Positions 1 to 11,343 of a stretch of DNA of 34,926 bases are shown here, piece by piece. Made by a program: the position numbers and the translations under genes. Within the stretch, counting starts at the first letter, position 1. Each line of letters begins with the position of its first letter. Source of the DNA: Eubacteriales bacterium (GTDB taxonomy: Bacteria > Bacillota > Clostridia > Tissierellales > Dethiosulfatibacteraceae); NCBI GenBank assembly GCA_030694905.1, contig JAUYTY010000009.1, positions 1 through 34,926 on the forward strand. Direction: 5' to 3'. The notes under the pieces are model-generated. The model had not been told where the DNA came from. It saw only the letters and a list, made by a program, of their open reading frames with translations, and ran no database searches.

Positions 1-795
1 GCATCAGGTGGAGGAGAAAATCTGCGTAACCTTAAGGAAGGAAATTTAGATCTTTGCATGCTCAACGTTGACATGGGATATTATTTTTACAGCTCTACTG
101 ATTCTTATGCTGGTGTAGGCGATGAAAGTCTACGTAGTCTTATTGCAATGCCTTCTTCTGCAATGCATATTATTGTTAGGGCTGGCCTTGGAATAGAGAG
201 TGTTCAGGATCTTAAGGGCAAAAATATTGCCGTAGGGACTGCAGGCAGCGGTTATGAATCATTTGCTAATAAAGTGATTTTAAGCGCAGGCATGACTTAT
301 GACGATATGAATGTTAGGATGATCAATGTTTCCCAGATGCCTGATGCTTTGAAGGATAACCAAATTGATGCGTTTTTCTTTCCTGTGCAGGTTCCAGGAA
401 GTGCAATCACTGAACTTTCTCTTGGCACTGACATAGAGGTACTTAATCTTTCATCTGAGTTTATCGATAAGTTCCTTTCTGAATATATTGGATATGTTAA
501 ATACACGATACCTGCTAATGTTTATAACAAGCAGAGTACAGCTGTTGAAACTTTTGCTACAGGTCAATTTATTGCGACTCTTCGAGATACGATGTCTGAA
601 GACGAAGTGTATCAGTTGCTCAGCGACATATTTGATAATCGTCCAGAATGGTTGAGTTCACATGTTACTTGTAATCAAATTACTGAAACAAATATTGATA
701 GCTTTATTGTACCGCTTCATGCTGGAGCTGTTAAGTTTTATAGAGAACGTGGAGTTACTATTCCAGAAGAATTAATTCCTCCAGAAGCAAAATAA
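1..795 (+). CDS. TAXI family TRAP transporter solute-binding protein (5' truncated by window)
   Basis: This is the extracytoplasmic substrate-binding subunit of a tripartite ATP-independent (TRAP) transporter of the TAXI class, which delivers small organic acids or amino acids to a membrane permease. The reading frame is open from the first base, so the N-terminus and signal peptide lie upstream; 264 residues are visible and end at TAA 793-795. The segment near visible residues 70-84 (DLKGKNIAVGTAGSG) is the typical TAXI 'DLKGK.VAVG..GSG' signature, and the tail (FYRERGVTIPEELIPP) is also typical of the family. The fused TRAP permease starts 47 bases downstream, so the two should form one transporter. 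A methionine codon at base 58 is internal and not a real start. The substrate cannot be read from the sequence; the catabolic genes downstream suggest a carboxylate. Confidence 0.9.
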   Translation, partial: ASGGGENLRNLKEGNLDLCMLNVDMGYYFYSSTDSYAGVGDESLRSLIAMPSSAMHIIVRAGLGIESVQDLKGKNIAVGTAGSGYESFANKVILSAGMTYDDMNVRMINVSQMPDALKDNQIDAFFFPVQVPGSAITELSLGTDIEVLNLSSEFIDKFLSEYIGYVKYTIPANVYNKQSTAVETFATGQFIATLRDTMSEDEVYQLLSDIFDNRPEWLSSHVTCNQITETNIDSFIVPLHAGAVKFYRERGVTIPEELIPPEAK

Positions 796-842: not shown

Positions 843-2753
843 ATGTCAAATAATTGTGTAATAGATAGTCCTGCGTATAAGAAAATAATAAAATTCATCG
901 CCATTGGGATGGGTATTTTTCAACTCATTGTTGCAGGATATGGGTTCCTTGTCACCAATATGCGAGGCAGCATCCACTTAACGTTTGCAATGGTGCTAGT
1001 TGCTATGTACAAACCTGTGAGATTTAAAAATGCTAAGCTTACGGATGTATATAATATACTGTTTGTTTTGGTCGCGTTATTTTGTGGAATGTTTCTTACC
1101 TTCCAGACGAGAGCTTCCTATGCACTCATTTACACACTTAATGGACCTTCTCAGATAGACGTTATTGTAGGAATGCTAATAATTGTAATGATTCTTATTT
1201 GTTCAAGGCGAACAACTGGCTGGGCACTACCATTAATCTGTACTGTTTTTCTTTTGTATGGTCTTTTCGGACACTACCTACCTGGGTTTCTTAATCATAA
1301 AGAGTATACCTTGCGTAACATCGTTGATGTAGTAGTGTACACAAGCGAAGGGCTTTTGGGGCAACCTCTAAGCATTTCTTCTTCTTACGTAGCATCATTT
1401 GTTATGTTTGGTGCTTTTTTAGCAAGCACTGGAGCGGGGCAGTGGTTCATTGATATGGCGTTTGCTCTAACAGGACGATCTCGAAGTGGTCCTGCAATGG
1501 CTGCGGTAGTTTCTTCAGCTGCATTGGGTACAATTTCCGGGACAGGTGTGGCCAATGTTGTAACTACTGGAGCGTTTACAATTCCACTGATGAAGTCTTG
1601 TGGTTATTCTGCAAAGATGGCAGGCGCGATAGAAGCTACAGCCTCAACAGGTGGACAGATAATGCCTCCTATTATGGGTGCAGGTGCCTTTATACTTGCA
1701 GAAATGATCGGTGTACCATATGGTACTATCGCACTAGCGGCAACTTTACCAGCCTTGTTGTATTTTCTTGCTGTCGCATTTCAGGTGGATTTTGAAGCTG
1801 GAAGGCTGGGAATGAAGGGTCTTCCTGCGAGTCAACTACCTCCAAAATATAAAACTTTCAAAACTGGTTGGTTCTTTCTCATGCCAGTTGCAATGATTGT
1901 ATGGTCTTTAGTCATTATGAATTTCAGCGCGAATTATTCAGCGCTTATGGCTATAGGCATGGTCCTATTAGTTGGATATTTTTTCAAAAGTAAAAAAACC
2001 AGATTGAATTTTAGTAATGTATTTCAAGCCCTTGAGGGTGGATCGAAGGATTTGATATCGGTTGCTATGGCCTGTGCGGTGGCTGGATTAATGATTGGTG
2101 TATTGACCAAGACAGGTCTAGGTTTGAAGTTTGCGTCGTTACTTATACTTGCAGCTGGAGGAGAAATACTTCCTACTTTGGTCCTTACTATGGTTTGCTG
2201 CATCTTCCTCGGGATGGGTTTGCCTACAACTGCTGCTTTCATTATTACTGCAACGTTGTGTGCACCCGCCCTTATAACACTTGGGATACCTCAGCTAGCT
2301 GCTTACATGTTTGTGTTCTACTTTGCGTGTTTATCTGCTATCACACCACCGGTTGCGCTTGCGGCATTTGCGGCTGCTGCGATTTCAGGTTCAAGGCCTA
2401 TGGAAACTGGATTAAAAGCTACACGAATTGGTCTTGCTGGATTTGTCATTCCATATTTTTTCTGCTTTACACCTGCATTACTCCTTCAGGGATCGCTTAC
2501 TGAAATAGTTCAGGTAGCTGTCACATCTATAATTGGCATTTTCTTCCTTTCGGGTGGACTGGGGGGATATATGTGGAAAAGTCTCAATGTCATAGAAAGA
2601 TTAGCCTTAATTATAGCGGCTTTGCTGATGGTTGAGGGTGGTAATCTGACTGATATAATTGGTATTGTGATTGGAGGGAGTGTAATCTTACTCCAGGTTA
2701 AAGGAATTAAAAAGAAAAATTTGTTAGATATTCAGAAGACTGCTATAAGTTGA
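843..2753 (+). CDS. TRAP transporter permease, fused DctQM type (TAXI class)
   Basis: This 636-residue polytopic membrane protein is the cation-coupled permease of a TAXI-TRAP system, with the small (DctQ-like) and large (DctM-like) parts fused, as is usual when the partner is a TAXI binding protein. Hydrophobic segments run through almost the whole length. Residues about 215-300 carry the conserved DctM region, including GTISGTG (about 229-235) and ASTGGQIMPP (about 267-276). A second related motif, GMGLPTTAAF, lies in the C-terminal half, as expected from the internal duplication of DctM. AGAAAGGA at about 827-835 precedes the ATG with good spacing. It follows the binding-protein gene closely and is followed by a terminator-like hairpin, so the two genes look like a complete transporter transcription unit. 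Confidence 0.93.
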   Translation: MSNNCVIDSPAYKKIIKFIAIGMGIFQLIVAGYGFLVTNMRGSIHLTFAMVLVAMYKPVRFKNAKLTDVYNILFVLVALFCGMFLTFQTRASYALIYTLNGPSQIDVIVGMLIIVMILICSRRTTGWALPLICTVFLLYGLFGHYLPGFLNHKEYTLRNIVDVVVYTSEGLLGQPLSISSSYVASFVMFGAFLASTGAGQWFIDMAFALTGRSRSGPAMAAVVSSAALGTISGTGVANVVTTGAFTIPLMKSCGYSAKMAGAIEATASTGGQIMPPIMGAGAFILAEMIGVPYGTIALAATLPALLYFLAVAFQVDFEAGRLGMKGLPASQLPPKYKTFKTGWFFLMPVAMIVWSLVIMNFSANYSALMAIGMVLLVGYFFKSKKTRLNFSNVFQALEGGSKDLISVAMACAVAGLMIGVLTKTGLGLKFASLLILAAGGEILPTLVLTMVCCIFLGMGLPTTAAFIITATLCAPALITLGIPQLAAYMFVFYFACLSAITPPVALAAFAAAAISGSRPMETGLKATRIGLAGFVIPYFFCFTPALLLQGSLTEIVQVAVTSIIGIFFLSGGLGGYMWKSLNVIERLALIIAALLMVEGGNLTDIIGIVIGGSVILLQVKGIKKKNLLDIQKTAIS

Positions 2754-2810: not shown

Positions 2811-3262
2811 CTAAGTTTGAGCCTAATCGACAGAAAATTCGAATAGATACGTATTAATGTCAAATAGTTTTTCAACTCACAAGGCATTAGAAGTCAAGTA
2901 TGGATTGTTTACATCTTAATCAATAGGCGCTTGACACGACAGGCTGGCAACTTCCCGGTAGAGATACAGTCTATGATATTGGAATGGTTGAATAAAGAAC
3001 ACTGGATAAAAGCATTACGCACCTTTTTAAAAAAACAAAAAGCTCGGGGTTCACTATTTGTGATAGTTTCCGAGCTTTTTACACCTACCAACTGTCAGAG
3101 ATGGGATTGTATTCTGTGATATTATAATACAACGGTGCATTTTCATTTTCCAAGATATCGCATCAAAGTCTGTACATTGTTTGTTCCACTTTTTCAGAAC
3201 TAGCGCAGTTTTTACAAAATATTCTTACTAAACCAAAATTATTCAGAAGGGAAATGAAGTTT
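2811..3262. other. Gene-free stretch between the TRAP permease and mmgE/prpD
   Basis: I find no convincing gene here. Short open frames exist on both strands around 2909-3119, but they run through the hairpin at 3037-3080 and resemble no family I know. A TATAAT hexamer occurs at 3123-3128 about 140 bases ahead of the next gene, but no acceptable -35 box sits at the right distance. The sequence could be debris of an inserted element, but I cannot show that. Confidence 0.4.
3037..3080 (+). terminator. Rho-independent terminator-like hairpin
   Basis: AAAAAGCTCGG at 3037-3047 pairs perfectly with CCGAGCTTTTT at 3070-3080. The 22-base interval contains a smaller nested repeat (ACTAT 3053-3057 with ATAGT 3063-3067), so a long structured stem is possible. 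The A-run before and T-run after the GC core would let it act in either direction. No intact gene ends directly at it, so it may be left over from a lost gene or element. Confidence 0.5.
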
Positions 3263-4627
3263 ATGCTAATAACACAAGCGTTTGCTAAATTTATCAATAA
3301 TACTAATTATGATGATTTGCCGAAAGATGTAATTGAATCAGCAAAAGAGCGAATACTGGATACAATCGGGTCAATGCTGGCAGGTTACTGTGGTTGGGAT
3401 TACAAAGAACAGTTTTTAACTGCATGTCGTCAGATTGATTCCGGTGATTGCAGTATACTGTGCGATGAGAAAAAAGAATTTTCAATTGCACGGACAGCAA
3501 TGATAGATTCAACTTTTGCACATGCAATTGAGCTGGATGACGGACACAAAAATGCGGGAGTGCATGCAGGAGCTGTAGTTATTCCAACAGCGCTTAACAT
3601 AGGTAAAGAACTAGGATCTAGTGGAAAAGATATTATTGAAGCGGTTGTTTTAGGTTATGAAATTGTTTATCGTATTGCTTCAAGCATGAGCCCTTATCAA
3701 ATACAAAAGGGTTTTCATCCTTCCGGAAACTGTGACACTTTTGGAGCAATGGCGGTTGCAGGAAAATTATTGGGTCTTAGTGAAGAACAATTAGCCAATG
3801 GATTGGGAATGGCAGGACTTTATGCCGCAGGACTTATGGAGGCTACTGTTTCAGGACAGCAGTCAAAATGCATACAAGTTGGAAATGCTGCTTTTAATGG
3901 GGTTGCAGCTGCATATATGGCAAAAAGCGGTATGGAAGGAACAATAACTGTATTTGAAGGAAAAACAGGATTCTTTAATGCGCAGTCTGAAAAGGTTGAT
4001 TTAGAAAAGGTTGTTCTTAACTTAGGTAAAATCTACACAATCGGGGATACTTATACTAAGCTTTACCCTACCTGCAGGCATTCTCAGCCTGCTATTGAAG
4101 CTGTAATTGATTCAATGCAAGAACACGGGTTTAAATATGAGGATGTTGAAAAAGTACTGGTTAATACCCATCAGGTGGCATATGATTTAACAGGAAAAAT
4201 AGTACACCCTAAAAATTCTGGAGAAGCTAAGTTTAGTTTAGCATATGGGATTGCTCTTGCGCTTACAGAACAGAGCGTAGGTGTTGCACACTTAATGGAA
4301 GAATACACAGAGAATAGTATCAACAAAGAATTATCAACCCTTGTTGAGGTTAAGGTAGATCCGGAAGTGCAGGCTCTATATCCTGGAAGAAGAGGAGCGA
4401 TAGTGACTATTTGCCTTAAAGATGGGCAAAAGATAGTGAGGGAATGTTATGATTTGAAAGGGTCGCCTAACAATCCTGTAGGTTTTGGTGAAATAAAACA
4501 AAAATTTGTAAGCAATGCTAAGTCAATGATTACAAAGGAAAGCATCGATAAAATAATCGATATACTAAATAATCTGGAAAAAGAACAAAAGCTAGATGAT
4601 GTTTTGACACTTCTTAAGCCACAATAA
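3263..4627 (+). CDS. MmgE/PrpD family protein (dehydratase/decarboxylase-like)
   Basis: This 454-residue protein has the full length and signatures of the MmgE/PrpD family: a DTIGSMLAG segment near the N-terminus, the catalytic-region block HAIELDDGHKNAGVHAG, and GFHPSG followed by the long all-alpha core. Known members include 2-methylcitrate dehydratase (PrpD), cis-aconitate decarboxylase and an iminodisuccinate epimerase, so the family does not fix the reaction. Neighbouring aconitase-like, PrpF-like, CoA-transferase and lyase genes point to a di- or tricarboxylic acid. I chose ATG 3263 because AAGGGA at 3247-3252 lies about ten bases before it. An in-frame ATG at 3254 would sit only one base from that site and adds three residues. 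A 331-base gap separates it from the next gene, so it may be transcribed separately. Confidence 0.9.
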   Translation: MLITQAFAKFINNTNYDDLPKDVIESAKERILDTIGSMLAGYCGWDYKEQFLTACRQIDSGDCSILCDEKKEFSIARTAMIDSTFAHAIELDDGHKNAGVHAGAVVIPTALNIGKELGSSGKDIIEAVVLGYEIVYRIASSMSPYQIQKGFHPSGNCDTFGAMAVAGKLLGLSEEQLANGLGMAGLYAAGLMEATVSGQQSKCIQVGNAAFNGVAAAYMAKSGMEGTITVFEGKTGFFNAQSEKVDLEKVVLNLGKIYTIGDTYTKLYPTCRHSQPAIEAVIDSMQEHGFKYEDVEKVLVNTHQVAYDLTGKIVHPKNSGEAKFSLAYGIALALTEQSVGVAHLMEEYTENSINKELSTLVEVKVDPEVQALYPGRRGAIVTICLKDGQKIVRECYDLKGSPNNPVGFGEIKQKFVSNAKSMITKESIDKIIDILNNLEKEQKLDDVLTLLKPQ

Positions 4628-4958
4628 AAAGATTTTGGAAAACAAATCCAAAAAATGCTGTGGAAACATCTGATCCTTTAGATAAAACATATTAGTTATT
4701 TCAGTTTGATTAAGATCTGAAATACGAAAAATATTAATCATAAAATTACATTCATTAAATTTGCCATGAATAAAAATGCCGGAATATTATCAGAGCTGTT
4801 TGTAGCGGGAGTAATAGTCATCGCCTCGCATAATATTAGAAAATAATAATAATTAAACGTATTTTTCCAACATCAGTATTTTTTTAATTCTACCATGATA
4901 GGTTTTATTGTAAAGAAACCTTGTCCTTAATGATTACAGAATAAAGGAGAACAATAAT
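4628..4958. other. 331-base intergenic region
   Basis: I see no supported gene. A weak 7-bp hairpin (TTTTGGA 4633-4639 with TCCAAAA 4647-4653) follows the MmgE/PrpD stop without a T-tail. A 26-codon open frame at 4766-4846 has no convincing ribosome site or homology. The region probably carries the promoter for the CoA-transferase operon, but I could not pick a consensus pair with confidence. Confidence 0.4.
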
Positions 4959-6146
4959 ATGTCAGCATTAAATGGAATTAGAGTATTAGAATTGGCTACG
5001 GTAATTGCAGGTCCTTATGCAGGAAATATTTTTTCTGATTTTGGAGCAGAAGTTATAAAGGTAGAAATGCCCGGATTGGGCGATGCTTTTAGGACGCAAG
5101 GCCCTTTTCATCAAGGGAAAAACATAAGATGGCCGTCTTTATCAAGGAACAAAAAATCAATTACGTTAGATTTACGTCAAGACGAAGGGAAAAATATTTT
5201 GCTTGAGTTGATTGCCGTGAGTGATGTAATCATAGAAAATTTCCGTGTTGGTACCCTTGATAAATGGGGTTTGGATATTGAGACGATGAGAAAGGCTAAT
5301 CCTAAAATAATTGTTGCTAGAGTTACAGGATACGGGCAAACTGGACCCAAGAAGCAATTGTCGGGATTTGGGACACCTTGCACTGCTTTTTCTGGAGTGA
5401 CTTACTGCACCGGTTATCCTGATAGATCTCCGGTTAGCCCATATTTCTCATTAGCAGATTATGTGGCTGGTCTTTATACTGTTATAGGTGCTTTAATGTC
5501 GCTTTATAACCGCGATATCTTTGAAGGTAAATCGCAGGAAATAGATATAAGTTTATATGAAGGTTTATTCAGGATGCAGGAATCTTTGGTTGCGGACTAC
5601 CATCTTAATGGAATTATAAAAGAGAGACAACCTAAAATGAGTGGTTCAGCAAGCCCATCGGCGACTTTTAAGACCAAAGATAATAAATGGGTTGTAATCG
5701 TATGTAGTACTGATAAGACATTTGAGTATTTAACAAATGCTATGGGAAGACATGATGAATTGATGAAGAATTATGATACGGCGTTAAAGAGAATAAATGA
5801 AGATGATTATATTTTAAGTATTACAGATGATTGGGTATCTAAATTGAATTATAAAGAGCTTGAAGAAATATGCCGAAAAGAAGGCGTTCCTGTAGACCTA
5901 GTGTATAGTATAGAAGACATTTTTGAAGATGATCATTACGCTGCCAGAAATGACATTATTGAATTTCCTAGTGAGGAGTTTGGAACAGTTAAAATGCCTA
6001 ATGTCTTCCCAATACTAAGTGAAACTCCTGGTGAGGTAAATTGGATAGGCCCCAAATTAGGAGCACATAACGAAGAAGTCTATTTAGGGTTATTGAATAA
6101 AAGTAAAGAATATTTAGAAATATTAAGAGAGAAGAATATAGTTTAG
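4959..6146 (+). CDS. Class III CoA-transferase (CaiB/BaiF family)
   Basis: This 395-residue protein belongs to the class III CoA-transferases, which move CoA between carboxylic acids through an aspartyl intermediate. It starts with the family hallmark (ALNGIRVLELATVIAGP), followed by GAEVIKVEMP and a region of RNKKSITLDL type. Asp167 in the segment SLADYVAGLYT aligns with the catalytic aspartate of formyl-CoA transferase. The C-terminal GPKLGAHNEEV segment is also typical. AAAGGAGA about ten bases before ATG is the ribosome site. It is the first gene of a tight row with the aconitase-like, PrpF-like and HMG-CoA-lyase-like genes. I infer that it activates the hydrated acid with CoA before cleavage; the CoA donor and acceptor cannot be told from sequence. 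Confidence 0.92.
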   Translation: MSALNGIRVLELATVIAGPYAGNIFSDFGAEVIKVEMPGLGDAFRTQGPFHQGKNIRWPSLSRNKKSITLDLRQDEGKNILLELIAVSDVIIENFRVGTLDKWGLDIETMRKANPKIIVARVTGYGQTGPKKQLSGFGTPCTAFSGVTYCTGYPDRSPVSPYFSLADYVAGLYTVIGALMSLYNRDIFEGKSQEIDISLYEGLFRMQESLVADYHLNGIIKERQPKMSGSASPSATFKTKDNKWVVIVCSTDKTFEYLTNAMGRHDELMKNYDTALKRINEDDYILSITDDWVSKLNYKELEEICRKEGVPVDLVYSIEDIFEDDHYAARNDIIEFPSEEFGTVKMPNVFPILSETPGEVNWIGPKLGAHNEEVYLGLLNKSKEYLEILREKNIV

Positions 6147-6181
6147 TTTTTGATTTGAATGCTGAAGTAGGAGGGAAGCTA

Positions 6182-8101
6182 ATGGGTAAGAGCATTTTCG
6201 AAAAAATTGTCTCAGCTCACAAAATTTCTGGTGAATGTAAAGTTGGTCAAGAGTTAGCGATTAAAATAGACCAGACATTGACACAGGATTCATTAGGTGC
6301 GATGGCATATTTGCAGTTTGAAGCAATGAACAAAGACAGAATAGAGACGGAACTGTCGGTGTCCTATACAGACCATCTGATGTTACAGTTAGGACAAGGT
6401 AATGGGGATGTACATCGTTATCTCGAGACGGTAGCCGACAAGTTCGGAGTAGTTTATTCAAAGGCAGGTAATGGAATTTGTCATCAGGTCCACTTGGAAA
6501 GATTCTCAAAGCCAGGTAAAACACTAATAGGAAGTGATAGCCATACAGTAACCTGTGGAGCTGTAGGAATGCTTGCCCTTGGAGTAGGAGGTTTGGATGT
6601 AGCTCTTGCGATGGCTGGGGTTCCATTTTATATTAAATATCCTAAGATTATGAGAATTGTGTTAGAAGGTCGAATGAAACCTTGGGTAACAGCTAAAGAC
6701 GTAGCTTTAGAAGTGCTTAAAAACGTTACTACAAAAGGTAATGTTGGTACAGTTCTGGAGTATTGTGGTAACGGACTGGAATTTTTAACAATTCCAGAGA
6801 GAGCAACCATTACAAATATGGGAGCAGAAACTGGTGTTACAACATCAATATTTCCAAGTGATGAAATGACAAAGAAATTTTTGGAGTCTCAAGGACGGTT
6901 GGAAGATTGGGTTGCAATTTCTTCGGATGATGATACAGTTTATGACATTGAATTGGTGATTAATCTTGATGAACTTGAGCCAAATGTTGCTGTTCCCCAT
7001 TCTCCTGACTTAGTACTTAAGGTAAAAGACATTAAAGATTTGAAGGTAAATCAGGTTCTCATAGGAAGTTGCACAAATTCATCATATTTAGACATGATGA
7101 GAGCTGCAGCTGTTTTAAAGGGTAAAAAGATTAAACCGGATATAAGTTTTGGAGTATCCGCAGGTTCTAGGCAGGTAATGTCTATGTTGGCTGATTCGGG
7201 TGCTTTAAGCTGGTTTATTGATTCTGGAGCAAGGGTATTGGAAAGTGGATGTGGATTTTGTGTTGGACAAGGACAAGCCCCTGAAATGGGAGCGGTATCA
7301 GTAAGAACGAATAACAGAAATTACAAAGGGAGAAGTGGAACTCAGGATGATCAAGTATATCTTGTAAGCCCAGAAACTGCTGCGGCTACAGCTATAATGG
7401 GTGTGCTGACAGATCCAAGAACTTTGCAGATGGAGTACCCTAAAATAGATATTCCGGAGAAGATGAAACTAGATGATAGTATGCTTATTTTTCCAACTTA
7501 TACGAAGAATATTTTCAGAAGCCCTATAATTGGTGAGCCACCGGTAAATACTCTTATGCCTAAGAAAATAACTGGTCAGGTAGCTATTAAACTAGGAGAT
7601 ATGATTAATACTGATGATATAATTCCTGGAGGATCAGCTATGACCTATCGTGCAAATATCAAAAAGTCATGTGAATTTATATTTCAATTTGTTGATAGTC
7701 GTTTTCCTAAAAAATGTGAGGATATTGTAGAGCAGGGGAAATATCCTATAATAGTTGCGGGAGAAAGCTATGGACAAGGTTCGTCTAGGGAGCATGCTGC
7801 ACTTTGTCCGATGGTAATGGGGGTTAAATATATATTGGCTAAAAGTATTGAAAGAATACACCAAACCAATTTAATCAATTTTGGGATTTTGCCTTTGTTG
7901 TTTCAAAACCCTGAAGACTATGGTGATATTGAGTACGACGACATTATCGTCATGAAAGACTCGGAAGTATCTGTTCGGATGGATGTTGTACAAATAGAAA
8001 ATATTACTAAAAATAAAATATATAATGTAAAAAACAGTGCTACAGAAAGACAACGTGAGATTATTCTTCTTGGTGGTCTGTTAAATTCAATAAACAAATA
8101 G
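6182..8101 (+). CDS. Single-chain aconitase-family hydratase
   Basis: This 639-residue protein is a fused LeuC/LeuD-type member of the aconitase family, of the length seen for clostridial aconitase. The catalytic part holds GNGICHQVHLERF, GSDSHT (117-122) and the three [4Fe-4S] ligands Cys297 (GSCTNSS), Cys357 and Cys360 (GCGFC). The swivel domain carries GESYGQGSSREHA (about 527-539) and the HQTNLINFGILPL segment. All residues needed for cluster-dependent hydration/dehydration appear present. The reaction may be citrate/isocitrate interconversion, but the context (PrpF, CoA-transferase, lyase) also allows hydration of a citraconate-, methylaconitate- or dimethylmaleate-like acid. I chose ATG 6182 because AGGAGGG at 6169-6175 lies six bases before it. 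An upstream in-frame TTG at 6155 has no ribosome site and would place that Shine-Dalgarno inside the gene. Confidence 0.9.
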   Translation: MGKSIFEKIVSAHKISGECKVGQELAIKIDQTLTQDSLGAMAYLQFEAMNKDRIETELSVSYTDHLMLQLGQGNGDVHRYLETVADKFGVVYSKAGNGICHQVHLERFSKPGKTLIGSDSHTVTCGAVGMLALGVGGLDVALAMAGVPFYIKYPKIMRIVLEGRMKPWVTAKDVALEVLKNVTTKGNVGTVLEYCGNGLEFLTIPERATITNMGAETGVTTSIFPSDEMTKKFLESQGRLEDWVAISSDDDTVYDIELVINLDELEPNVAVPHSPDLVLKVKDIKDLKVNQVLIGSCTNSSYLDMMRAAAVLKGKKIKPDISFGVSAGSRQVMSMLADSGALSWFIDSGARVLESGCGFCVGQGQAPEMGAVSVRTNNRNYKGRSGTQDDQVYLVSPETAAATAIMGVLTDPRTLQMEYPKIDIPEKMKLDDSMLIFPTYTKNIFRSPIIGEPPVNTLMPKKITGQVAIKLGDMINTDDIIPGGSAMTYRANIKKSCEFIFQFVDSRFPKKCEDIVEQGKYPIIVAGESYGQGSSREHAALCPMVMGVKYILAKSIERIHQTNLINFGILPLLFQNPEDYGDIEYDDIIVMKDSEVSVRMDVVQIENITKNKIYNVKNSATERQREIILLGGLLNSINK

Positions 8102-8134
8102 TAAATACTAAAAATATCAAGGAGATTGAAGAAG

Positions 8135-9301
8135 ATGTATAAAGAAAACAGGAAAATACCATGCGTTTATATGAGAGGCGGAACCAGTAAAGCAGTTTTT
8201 TTCCACGATGAGGATTTACCACAAGAGGTTGGAGCAAGAGACAAAGTAATATTAAGTGCCTTTGGAAGTCCGGATTTGAGGCAAATTGACGGTATGGGCG
8301 GAGCCAATACGTCTACCAGTAAAGTTGCAATCATTAAGAAAAGCGAACGGGAAGGGATCGATGTAGATTATGATTTTGGGCAAGTCAGCGTTGATATGTC
8401 TGTTGTGGGAAAGACAATGAACTGTGGGAATATATCCTCAGCAGTAGGACCTTTTGCAATTGACGAAGGATTAGTTGAACCGGTAGAACCAATTACCATC
8501 GTAAAGATTTTCAACACCAATACAAATAAGATACTTGTATCGAGAGTTCCGGTAAAGAACGGAAGAGCGATGACTGAAGGCGATTTTGAGATAGACGGTG
8601 TCCCTGGAACAGGCGCTAAGATTCAAATAGAGTTTGAAAAACCTCAAGGCGCTGCATCAGGCAAGTTGCTTCCAACAGGAAACCCCAAGGATACTATTGA
8701 GATTGAAGGAAAAGCATATGAGTACTCCTTTGTAGATGCGGCAAATCCCGTGGTATTTGTAAGAGCGGAGCAATTTGGACTTAAAGGGACAGAGCTACCT
8801 TGGGAATTCGAAGCATTGAGCCAATGCAAAGAAATCTGCAGATTGCTTGAGATTATAAGAGGAACTTGTGCTATTACAATAGGGTTAGCTAAAGATTTGG
8901 AGGACGCTGCTGTTAATAGCCAGACTTTACCTAAAATCGCCTTTTGTACAGATCCTACGGATTATAAAGCTGGAAACGGCAAAGTAATCAAAAAAGAAAG
9001 TATCGACTATGTAGGACGATTATTTTCTTTAGGCATGAAAATGATTCAGGCTTATATGGGAACTGGCGCTATTTGTACTATCGTAGCGGCTAACACACCA
9101 GGAACAATCGTGAATGAAATAGTGTGCAAAGAAAAGAACAGCAATAAGGTTGAGCAAATGAGAATTGGACATCCTTTTGGCATCATGGAAGTAGATGCAG
9201 ATTTGGAAGACTTGGAGGAAGGTGGTCATACTGTAAAATGCGGTATGATAGGTAGAACTGCAAGAAGGATAATGGAAGGCTATGTTTATGTAAGAGACTA
9301 A
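8135..9301 (+). CDS. PrpF-family isomerase (methylaconitate/methylitaconate isomerase type)
   Basis: This 388-residue protein belongs to the PrpF / 3-methylitaconate isomerase family, which shifts or flips double bonds in unsaturated di- and tricarboxylates without cofactor. Visible signatures are MRGGTSKA (13-20), GMGGANTSTSK (about 53-63) and NCGNISSAVGPFAI (96-109). Lys63 and Cys97 occupy the places of the Lys/Cys pair implicated in PrpF catalysis. Known activities are trans- to cis-2-methylaconitate (PrpF), 3-methylitaconate to dimethylmaleate (Mii) and trans-aconitate isomerisation, so the substrate is open. ATG 8135 is chosen because AAGGAG at 8119-8124 lies ten bases away; the in-frame TTG at 8126 abuts that site. 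The gene begins 33 bases after the aconitase-like gene, so the two are clearly co-transcribed. Confidence 0.9.
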   Translation: MYKENRKIPCVYMRGGTSKAVFFHDEDLPQEVGARDKVILSAFGSPDLRQIDGMGGANTSTSKVAIIKKSEREGIDVDYDFGQVSVDMSVVGKTMNCGNISSAVGPFAIDEGLVEPVEPITIVKIFNTNTNKILVSRVPVKNGRAMTEGDFEIDGVPGTGAKIQIEFEKPQGAASGKLLPTGNPKDTIEIEGKAYEYSFVDAANPVVFVRAEQFGLKGTELPWEFEALSQCKEICRLLEIIRGTCAITIGLAKDLEDAAVNSQTLPKIAFCTDPTDYKAGNGKVIKKESIDYVGRLFSLGMKMIQAYMGTGAICTIVAANTPGTIVNEIVCKEKNSNKVEQMRIGHPFGIMEVDADLEDLEEGGHTVKCGMIGRTARRIMEGYVYVRD

Positions 9302-9346
9302 TAAAAATTTTTTTCAAGCTTTTGCAATTGAGAGGGAGAGAAGTGT

Positions 9347-10285
9347 ATGAATTTAGTTAAAAAAATTACAATATGCGAAGTGGGTCCAAGAGACGGTATA
9401 CAGAATGAAAAAAATATCTTGGCGTTTGAACAGAAGGTTGAACTTATAAACGATTTGACAGATGCAGGGTTTAAAGTAATAGAAGTTGGGTCTTTTATGC
9501 ATCCAAAAGCCGTGCCGCAGTTGGCGGATACTGATGCGGTTTTCAAGAAGATAAATAGAAGAGAAGGCGTGGAATACAGAGCACTTATTGCAAATGTTAA
9601 AGGAGTAGAAAGAGCTATAAACTGCGGATGCAGTAAAGTTAAATTAAATGTATCTGCCAGTAGAGCACATAATTTAAGCAATTTAAACAGAATGCCAGAA
9701 GACACTATTGTAGGGTTTAAAGATAGCGTTCATTTGGCTTTAGCTAATGGTATTGACGTTTCCGGCTCTATCTCTATGCCATTTGGATCTCCTTGGGAGT
9801 ATAAAATACCATTAGAGGATATTAAGAGCATTACAGAGGCTTATGTTAAAGCTGGAGTGAATGAGATATCATTATCTGATACCTCAGGTATGGGCGTTCC
9901 AAACCAGGTTTATAGTATTTGCAAGGAAATGAAGAGAGCTTTTCCTGACGTTAAATGGATACTTCATTTTCACAATACAAGAGGAACTGGTATTGCCAAT
10001 ATTGTGGCAGGCATGGCAGCAGGTTTTACTTGGTTCGATACATCCTTTGCAGGAGCAGGAGGTTGTCCTTTTGTACCAGGTGCAGCTGGGAATGTTTCAA
10101 CAGAAGATTTAGTTCATATGTGTGATGAAATGGGTATTGAAACGGGTATTGATATTGATAAGGTTATAGCCATCGGTAAAAAAGTTACAGAGCTGATTGG
10201 ACACGATGGAGACAGTTATGTTTTAAGGGCAGGAAAATCGACAGACTTGCTAAGAAGCAAGCCAACAGGACAGGAAAAAAAGTAA
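9347..10285 (+). CDS. HMG-CoA-lyase-type acyl-CoA lyase (DRE-TIM metallolyase)
   Basis: This 312-residue protein belongs to the hydroxymethylglutaryl-CoA lyase branch of the DRE-TIM superfamily, which cleaves 3-hydroxyacyl-CoAs to acetyl-CoA and a 2- or 3-oxoacid. It has EVGPRDGIQNE (11-21, with Arg15/Asp16), VGSFMHPKAVPQLAD (47-61), the metal ligands His207 and His209 (HFHNTRG), the catalytic-loop Cys240 (GGCPFVPGA) and Asn249. The active site therefore looks complete. It closes the operon that contains a CoA-transferase and a hydratase. I infer a substrate such as citramalyl-CoA, dimethylmalyl-CoA or citryl-CoA rather than leucine-derived HMG-CoA, because no leucine-degradation genes are nearby. 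GAGGGAGAG at 9332-9340 is the ribosome site. No clear terminator follows. Confidence 0.88.
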   Translation: MNLVKKITICEVGPRDGIQNEKNILAFEQKVELINDLTDAGFKVIEVGSFMHPKAVPQLADTDAVFKKINRREGVEYRALIANVKGVERAINCGCSKVKLNVSASRAHNLSNLNRMPEDTIVGFKDSVHLALANGIDVSGSISMPFGSPWEYKIPLEDIKSITEAYVKAGVNEISLSDTSGMGVPNQVYSICKEMKRAFPDVKWILHFHNTRGTGIANIVAGMAAGFTWFDTSFAGAGGCPFVPGAAGNVSTEDLVHMCDEMGIETGIDIDKVIAIGKKVTELIGHDGDSYVLRAGKSTDLLRSKPTGQEKK

Positions 10286-10457: not shown

Positions 10458-10839
10458 TTATGACAAATGATAAAAGTCGCGGATGGTCTCAAAGATATGT
10501 CCATTGTAAATCACGCAGATGCTAGATCTATGGCTAATGAGAACCTGTGTGGTTTTTGTTTTTGAGATAATGGTGAATCCCTTGTCAAGAATATGGAAGC
10601 AACAATCTTTGAAGGAGAATGCGCCGGTTTTGTCGGCTTTTTTTCATACTTGACACAGAGGATATCATCGATCCAATCCGGTTTAAACAACAAGATAAAC
10701 AGGCTCTCTTGCACATCGTCCTGGAAAGACCTAATAGTTCAGCTGCCTTTTCTCGGGTGATGGCTTTGTCGATAAAGCGGTTGATCACCTTGTAGGTTTT
10801 TAGTTGGGCTTGGGTCATTGTCACTGTTCTCTCTTTCAT
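10458..10839 (-). pseudogene. Remnant of an ISNCY-type transposase (internal deletion, frameshifts)
   Basis: The minus strand starting at ATG 10839 encodes a typical N-terminus of ISNCY-group transposases (MTQAQLKTYKVINRFIDK, then ITREKAAELLGLS). After about 45 residues the family match stops and the frame ends in unrelated residues. In the other two frames there follow pieces resembling a transposase C-terminus: one with PDWIDDILCVKYEKK, and a later one with TGAFSFKDCCFHILDKGF running to a stop at 10458-10460. I infer a large internal deletion plus at least two frameshifts, so the gene is dead. The family assignment of the N-terminal part is from memory of the family and is fairly secure; that of the C-terminal part is inference. 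Confidence 0.72.
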
Positions 10840-10860
10840 AGTTTATAGTGTAGCTGAAAG

Positions 10861-10906
10861 TGACATTTTCTCAAGTTAATTATAGGGTGACATTATCACA
10901 AGTTAA
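10861..10906 (-). repeat. Two 19-bp direct repeats at the IS-remnant end
   Basis: TGACATTTTCTCAAGTTAA at 10861-10879 recurs as TGACATTATCACAAGTTAA at 10888-10906, matching at 17 of 19 bases with a 27-base period. They lie just upstream of the transposase remnant's start, where such elements often carry transposase-binding repeats. They mark the right end of the element, only 22 bases from the tRNA promoter. Confidence 0.65.
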
Positions 10907-10980: not shown

Positions 10981-11070
10981 GGAAAGGTGACCGAGTGGCT
11001 GAAGGTGCACGCCTGGAAAGCGTGTGGGCGGGAAACTGCCTCAAGGGTTCGAATCCCTTCTTTTCCGCCA
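10981..11070 (+). tRNA. tRNA-Ser(GGA)
   Basis: This is a class II tRNA of 90 bases. The acceptor GGAAAGG pairs with CTTTTCC (one G-U pair), followed by the discriminator G and an encoded CCA at 11068-11070. The anticodon stem CACGC/GCGTG encloses the loop CTGGAAA, giving anticodon GGA at 11015-11017, which reads UCC and UCU. A long variable arm (about 11025-11042) identifies it as serine. The T arm AAGGG-TTCGAAT-CCCTT is perfect. Confidence 0.95.
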
Positions 11071-11073
11071 TTG

Positions 11074-11343
11074 AGCCGTGCTAGATGGGGTGTTAGCGGT
11101 ACCTTGTAGCCTGCAATCCGCTATAGCAGGGTTGAATCCCTTTATGAGGAATAACTCCGGTCGGGCCTGCCCTGAGCAAGTGATGTTGAGAATTTGGTCC
11201 TGCGCAATGAAAAGCTGTGAACTCCGTCAGGTCTGGAAGGAAGCAGCGGTAAACGGATTTTTTCATGTGCCGCAGACAATCCGGGTTTGAGTCAACTACT
11301 TGGGTTACGCCGGTTAGAGTATTTCGAATTCAGGTGCACGGCT
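11074..11343 (+). ncRNA. ffs: Signal recognition particle RNA, large bacterial type
   Basis: This is the RNA scaffold of the signal recognition particle, which with Ffh targets membrane proteins to the translocon. The 5' AGCCGTGC (11074-11081) pairs with 3' GCACGGCT (11336-11343), closing a molecule of about 270 nt, like the Bacillus scRNA. The 5' part has the Alu-domain sequence typical of the long form. The Ffh-binding helix 8 motif CAGGTCTGGAAGGAAGCAGC lies at 11228-11247. It begins three bases after the CCA end of tRNA-Ser, so it is probably cut from a common precursor. Open frames across it are incidental. Confidence 0.95.

Follow-up and report, generated by a model that had tools for sequence, protein, structure and literature searches.

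The window analysed here is a single contig of 34,926 bases (JAUYTY010000009.1) from genome G000, a Eubacteriales bacterium assembly of 2.8 Mb in 221 contigs that is 99% complete. It carries on the + strand a row of four genes (4959-10285) encoding a class III coenzyme A (CoA)-transferase of the CaiB type (4959..6146), a single-chain aconitase-family hydratase (6182..8101), a PrpF-family allylic isomerase (8135..9301) and a lyase of the 3-hydroxy-3-methylglutaryl-CoA (HMG-CoA) lyase family, HMGL (9347..10285). The open reading frames (ORFs) of the hydratase and PrpF open at 6155 and 8126, with ATG codons at 6182 and 8135 as the likelier starts; taking these, the gaps inside the row are 30-50 bp. 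An MmgE/PrpD gene (3254..4627, + strand, alternative start 3263) precedes the row. All five ORFs were found to be intact, and profile matches confirmed the families that a sequence-only reading of this DNA had assigned to them. Because an intrinsic terminator hairpin with a T run (3037..3080, + strand, -19.5 kcal/mol) stands between upstream TRAP transporter genes and MmgE/PrpD, and 331 bp separate the end of MmgE/PrpD from the start of CaiB, we set MmgE/PrpD and the transporter apart as neighbours, and the four genes are likely to form one unit. A terminator-like stem with a T run (10623..10637, + strand) was seen in the sequence 3' of the row.

Catalytic residues, with roles established for the families, were present in all four row enzymes. 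The CoA-transferase matches CoA_transf_3 (PF02515) at 5e-105 and has the catalytic Asp, D167, which identifies it as class III; against the mesaconate, glutarate, oxalate and carnitine equivalog models it reached at best 226.4 bits (cut-off 750) and belongs to none of them. The hydratase matches Pfam Aconitase at 5.5e-105, passes the aconitate hydratase model PRK07229 (838.7 bits, cut-off 612) and contains the cluster ligands Cys306, Cys366 and Cys369, the NRNxxGR arginines and the SSRE motif. PrpF matches PF04303 at 2.4e-120, and its K66 and C100 correspond to K73 and C107 of SoPrpF (PMC5690661); its 319.1 bits against the 2-methylaconitate isomerase equivalog TIGR02334 (cut-off 440.6) indicate superfamily membership only.

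The lyase matches HMGL-like at 5.5e-49, belongs to the HMG-CoA lyase family by PRK05692 (324.5 bits, cut-off 246) and has R15, D16, H207, H209 and C240. Its AlphaFold (AF2) model (mean predicted local distance difference test, pLDDT, 93.4) has the HMG-CoA lyase fold and best matches HMG-CoA lyases, among them 6nds, a structure determined with CoA and 3-methylmalate. The PRK05692 match, together with the resemblance of CaiB to human succinate-HMG CoA-transferase (9br7), would suit a true HMG-CoA lyase acting with a SUGCT-like CoA-transferase in leucine or HMG metabolism, the aconitase and PrpF genes being unrelated neighbours. However, methylcrotonyl- and glutaconyl-CoA genes, the mark of a leucine-breakdown setting (comparison loci L084 and L085), were not seen among the window ORFs, hydratase and PrpF genes are repeatedly co-located with CaiB-HMGL in other genomes, and the lyase falls in a clade found in non-leucine clusters. 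The context does not support HMG-CoA as the substrate, and we regard this explanation as highly improbable.

Instead, the four genes look like a complete route by which a plant-type tricarboxylic acid would be isomerised, hydrated, activated with CoA and split. PrpF would shift the double bond, a change of the kind that turns trans- into cis-aconitate, and the aconitase-family enzyme would hydrate the product to a 3-carboxy-3-hydroxy acid, namely citrate or its homologue homocitrate. We propose that CaiB activates this citrate/homocitrate-type acid at its CH2-COO- arm, with acetyl-CoA or succinyl-CoA as the CoA donor. The lyase would then break the resulting thioester (citryl-CoA or homocitryl-CoA) in a retro-Claisen reaction, releasing acetyl-CoA together with oxaloacetate or 2-oxoglutarate as the 2-oxo acid. 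Citrate would thereby be split with no need for ATP or for the prosthetic group of CitDEF. We infer the substrates, the reaction direction and the CoA donor. We give an even chance to the reading that the row serves this uncultured anaerobe of a Sedimentibacter-containing order as a module for the catabolism of an unsaturated tricarboxylic acid. The limited literature searched gave nothing relevant on HMGL-type citryl-CoA or homocitryl-CoA lyases.

Sister loci were reached through PrpF searches in the order and then through wider lyase and CaiB searches. The PrpF matches in the order mostly lay in clusters of the nicotinate-fermentation type, while L037 and L031 carry all four functions. L037, from the same genus, encodes a PrpR-type regulator, CaiB, PrpF, aconitase, HMGL, TRAP and TAXI proteins, and L031 encodes PrpR, PrpF, a transporter, a two-subunit hydratase, CaiB and HMGL. 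L139 has PrpR, CaiB, HMGL, hydratase and PrpF, and L078 has PrpR, PrpF, HMGL and hydratase with a SucCD-like CoA ligase replacing the CoA-transferase. Sets without PrpF were found in L142 and L143 (CaiB, HMGL and hydratase) and in L130, where the same three are accompanied by TAXI-TRAP genes and a PrpB-like lyase. In many loci only CaiB and HMGL are present, side by side as is common in the order, together with a transporter and usually with a regulator of the PrpR type. A common ancestral cassette was considered and rejected, as the window lyase groups apart from the lyases of the CaiB-HMGL pairs. Since the gene order varies among the sister sets and their lyases do not fall into a single cassette clade with that of the window, the sets appear to have been assembled more than once, and such repeated assembly supports a shared logic rather than common descent. 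Recurrence with different gene orders also suggests that the gene set of the window is more than chance. We consider the logic of isomerisation, hydration, CoA activation and cleavage well supported by these comparisons, because loci that were assembled independently share it, among them L078 with its CoA ligase.

Taken together, residue markers in the hydratase, PrpF and the lyase speak for a window substrate whose side chain carries a carboxylate and, in most sister sets, for one with a methyl side chain, so that the window row probably handles a tricarboxylate. R499 of the hydratase aligns with R580 of bovine aconitase, the tricarboxylate Arg; of the bovine tail used in this alignment, the 627-697 part was checked and agrees. 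The aconitases of C143 and L036, both citrate/IDH loci, have the same Arg. It is replaced by Ile in L037, and the hydratase small subunits of L031, L078, L139, L142 and L143 have a short LeuD-like loop that lacks it. In L130 a Lys stands where homoaconitase 2pkp has its Arg. The loop carrying this Arg has been published as the region by which members of the family recognise their substrates (PMC7308503). For the isomerase, the motifs STSK and IDGM are common to the window PrpF, the 2-methylaconitate isomerase 2pvz, C143 and L036, and LTSK with IDGL was found in the methylitaconate isomerase (Mii) 3g7k, in six nicotinate-cluster isomerases and in L031, L037, L078 and L139. The LTSK group was supported at 0.98 in the tree, with the window PrpF outside it; a branch uniting it with C143, L029 and L036 had almost no support (0.05). 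The trans-aconitate isomerases TarA and TbrA also belong to the PrpF family (PMC11495376). In the lyase, R78 and K99 are present in the window, in L130 and in 38/38 members of their clade, compared with 0/17 lyases from CaiB-HMGL pairs; the wider clade with these residues, which has one extra member (L146), was supported at 1.0. Most sister sets combine a hydrophobic or LeuD-like hydratase pocket, an LTSK isomerase and a lyase without R78/K99, and the window row has none of these three features.

The sister sets fit conversion of citraconate through (R)-citramalate and (R)-citramalyl-CoA to acetyl-CoA and pyruvate. The Chloroflexus (R)-citramalyl-CoA lyase is a member of the HMGL family. Succinyl-CoA:(R)-citramalate CoA-transferase (EC 2.8.3.20) and (R)-citramalyl-CoA lyase (EC 4.1.3.46) are known activities (PMC8307300); likened by function, this pair too has a class III CoA-transferase acting ahead of an acyl-CoA lyase that yields acetyl-CoA and a 2-oxo acid. 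It acts on a C5 methyl substrate, whereas the window adds PrpF, an aconitase-type hydratase and tricarboxylate-type residues. The sequence-only reading had offered this course, starting from itaconate and passing through citraconate, and a trans-aconitate scheme as two ways to read the window. Although the itaconate scheme draws on known enzymes and on sister sets of the same functions with C5-type pockets, the window hydratase retains the Arg that L037 has replaced, its PrpF lies on the methylaconitate side and its lyase has R78/K99. The markers thus speak for the tricarboxylate scheme in the window and move the itaconate scheme to the sister sets; for the window itself we consider it quite unlikely.

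Several observations weigh against a tricarboxylate, and in particular a citrate, route. The sequence-only reading had looked to conservation of the row in other genomes; the functional set does recur, but neither the genomes of the order nor a sample of the class yielded the exact row again. No regulator gene was found beside the window row. Of 208 near-invariant columns, the hydratase deviates from ordinary aconitases in 27, which suggests an altered substrate, and the retention of R499 is weak evidence because ordinary aconitases have the same Arg. LTSK is an imperfect marker, as it also occurs in L033 in another tricarboxylate-type locus. R78 and K99 lie on two neighbouring strands of the predicted model (76-81 and 97-103), and the alternation of side chains along the strand may leave R78 pointing outward rather than toward the substrate. 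Finally, a second tricarboxylate locus of this genome (G000:C143, with L024 and L025) contains TctABC, PrpF, MmgE/PrpD, IDH and aconitase genes, a LarA-family (malate-racemase-like) protein, a 765-aa second aconitase-like hydratase, LysR and CitDEF-like genes; with citrate lyase, aconitase and PrpF there, a second citrate route looks redundant.

The main rival is a homocitrate version, in which homoaconitate (3-carboxyhex-2-enedioate) would be converted through homocitrate and homocitryl-CoA to acetyl-CoA and 2-oxoglutarate. It holds this place because the closest relatives of the window lyase (58-70% identity) are the lyases of a quinate/shikimate-like ring-cleavage cluster, among which it is nested, its exact position having weak support (0.50). 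Should that cluster open a ring derived from dehydroquinate, homocitryl-CoA would be the expected acyl-CoA. The divergence of the window hydratase from ordinary aconitases points the same way, as does the hydratase small subunit of L130, which best matches homoaconitase. On the other hand, homocitrate rarely serves as a growth substrate, the substrate assigned to the quinate-like cluster is hypothetical, and we know of no PrpF acting on homoaconitate isomers. We therefore judge the homocitrate version unlikely, if still worth weighing beside the citrate one.

The ring-cleavage cluster itself (L090-L127) is conserved and comprises an HMGL-like lyase, an ALS-like thiamine pyrophosphate (TPP) enzyme, a SauS-like acylating aldehyde dehydrogenase and a xylose-isomerase-like TIM protein, with AroE-like and sometimes AroD-like genes and a TRAP or Tct transporter. 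Across the 41 loci with this lyase, the aldehyde dehydrogenase was present in 37, the TPP enzyme in 35, AroE in 27, the TIM protein in 26 and AroD in 8. Named genomes with the cluster include Lutispora thermophila (L094:2759-8843) and Acetoanaerobium pronyense (L124:9001-18062). A possible function is the fermentation of quinate or shikimate by a non-aromatic route, with cleavage of homocitryl-CoA as its last step; the limited literature searched gave nothing relevant on anaerobic quinate ring opening. In the genome of the window, a search for a partner cluster found no HMGL besides that of the row, and the TPP enzymes that it returned were all distant (33%).

A variant of the methylcitrate cycle acting on 2-methylcitrate and 2-methylaconitate was also weighed. 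PrpF and an aconitase-type enzyme are partners (AcnD/PrpF) in that cycle (PMC5690661), and an MmgE/PrpD gene lies nearby. Yet neither PrpB nor PrpC was seen among the window ORFs, the PrpD and AcnD models gave 53.6 (cut-off 575) and 159 (cut-off 1420) and exclude membership, and a CoA-transferase with an HMGL is foreign to the cycle, which makes this variant very unlikely. The aerobic itaconate route of the Ict/Ich/CitE type shares CoA activation, hydration and cleavage to acetyl-CoA and pyruvate, but activates before hydration and splits (S)-citramalyl-CoA with a CitE-type lyase (PMC12290011); a CitE-type lyase and an itaconyl-CoA hydratase were not seen among the window ORFs, and the window lyase is of the HMGL type.

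Other known systems share parts of the proposed route. CitDEF, as in C143, also splits citrate into an acetyl unit and oxaloacetate, but as an acetyl-ACP prosthetic-group complex with neither free citryl-CoA nor an HMGL fold. The nicotinate-fermentation set of Eubacterium barkeri (Mii, DmdAB and Dml) likewise has a PrpF-type isomerase followed by an aconitase-type hydratase; unlike the window it has no CoA activation, uses a PrpB-type lyase and has a B12 mutase upstream. The tar system of Bacillus velezensis resembles the window in that a PrpF-family isomerase supplies cis-aconitate, which there goes to central metabolism, with no dedicated CoA-transferase or lyase described (PMC11495376).

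Further genes were observed in the comparison loci. Nicotinate-fermentation-like clusters, recognised by eye and gene order only, occur in several relatives (L028, L030, L032, L034, L035 and L039) and comprise Mii-like PrpF, DmdAB-like hydratase, 619-aa mutase-like, Hgd-like, MutL-like and Dml-like genes. Inside the CaiB-HMGL-hydratase set of L143 lies an isopropylmalate-dehydrogenase-like gene (L143:9863-10936), perhaps a 3-methylmalate dehydrogenase, as would be expected if 3-methylmalate were an intermediate. The CaiB of L130, which adjoins an HMGL, is 62% identical to that of the window; beside this closest CaiB-HMGL relative are an FAD-dependent oxidoreductase-like gene (548 aa) and a PrpB/Dml-like lyase (L130:783-3341), perhaps for tricarballylate-type oxidation or a second cleavage route.

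The MmgE family holds epimerases and dehydratases besides decarboxylases. The window protein matches MmgE_PrpD at 4e-59, and its closest PDB structures are IDS epimerase and IRG1, not PrpD. Its active-site His and Lys align with cis-aconitate decarboxylase, but IDS epimerase scores equally, and in an aerobic itaconate cluster a family member is a methylsuccinate isomerase (PMC12290011). No relatives above 34% identity were found in 249 genomes of the order, and the idea that MmgE travels with the functional set was rejected; it is absent from the sister sets. MmgE is probably accessory rather than core, and its suggested role as an itaconate maker was not supported. Upstream lie the genes for a TAXI solute-binding protein (58..795, + strand; TIGR02122 from model position 91, the N-terminus being lost at the contig start) and a TAXI-type TRAP fused permease (843..2753, + strand; TIGR02123 at 2.8e-197), a possible uptake system. 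These are the TAXI-TRAP genes of the sequence-only reading; their inclusion in the operon was not supported, a terminator hairpin following them. TAXI-TRAP genes also adjoin the L130 and L037 sets, and MmgE and TRAP may assist the row without being core. Overall, the earlier interpretation is partly supported.

Downstream of the row, a remnant of a truncated transposase-like frame (10640-10870, - strand) lies near a tRNA-Ser gene, which suggests a rearranged or acquired segment. The tRNA-Ser(GGA) and large signal recognition particle RNA genes (10981-11341) are followed by dnaX-ybaB-recR, an ordinary arrangement.

HMGL enzymes and class III CoA-transferases may together constitute an overlooked, modular anaerobic route for splitting 3-carboxy-3-hydroxy acids, used for a tricarboxylate in the window and for itaconate/citraconate fermentation in L037, L031, L139 and L078; we advance this wider proposal tentatively, as possible but somewhat short of an even chance. 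The split in marker residues turns into substrate predictions that can be tested on four soluble enzymes. As itaconate-fermenting bacteria were not yet known according to a 2025 paper (PMC12290011), the sister sets are testable candidates for this metabolism and, if the proposal is true, would be gene sets for fermenting itaconate-type acids. Anaerobes would then also possess a citrate- or homocitrate-splitting route needing neither citrate lyase nor ATP.

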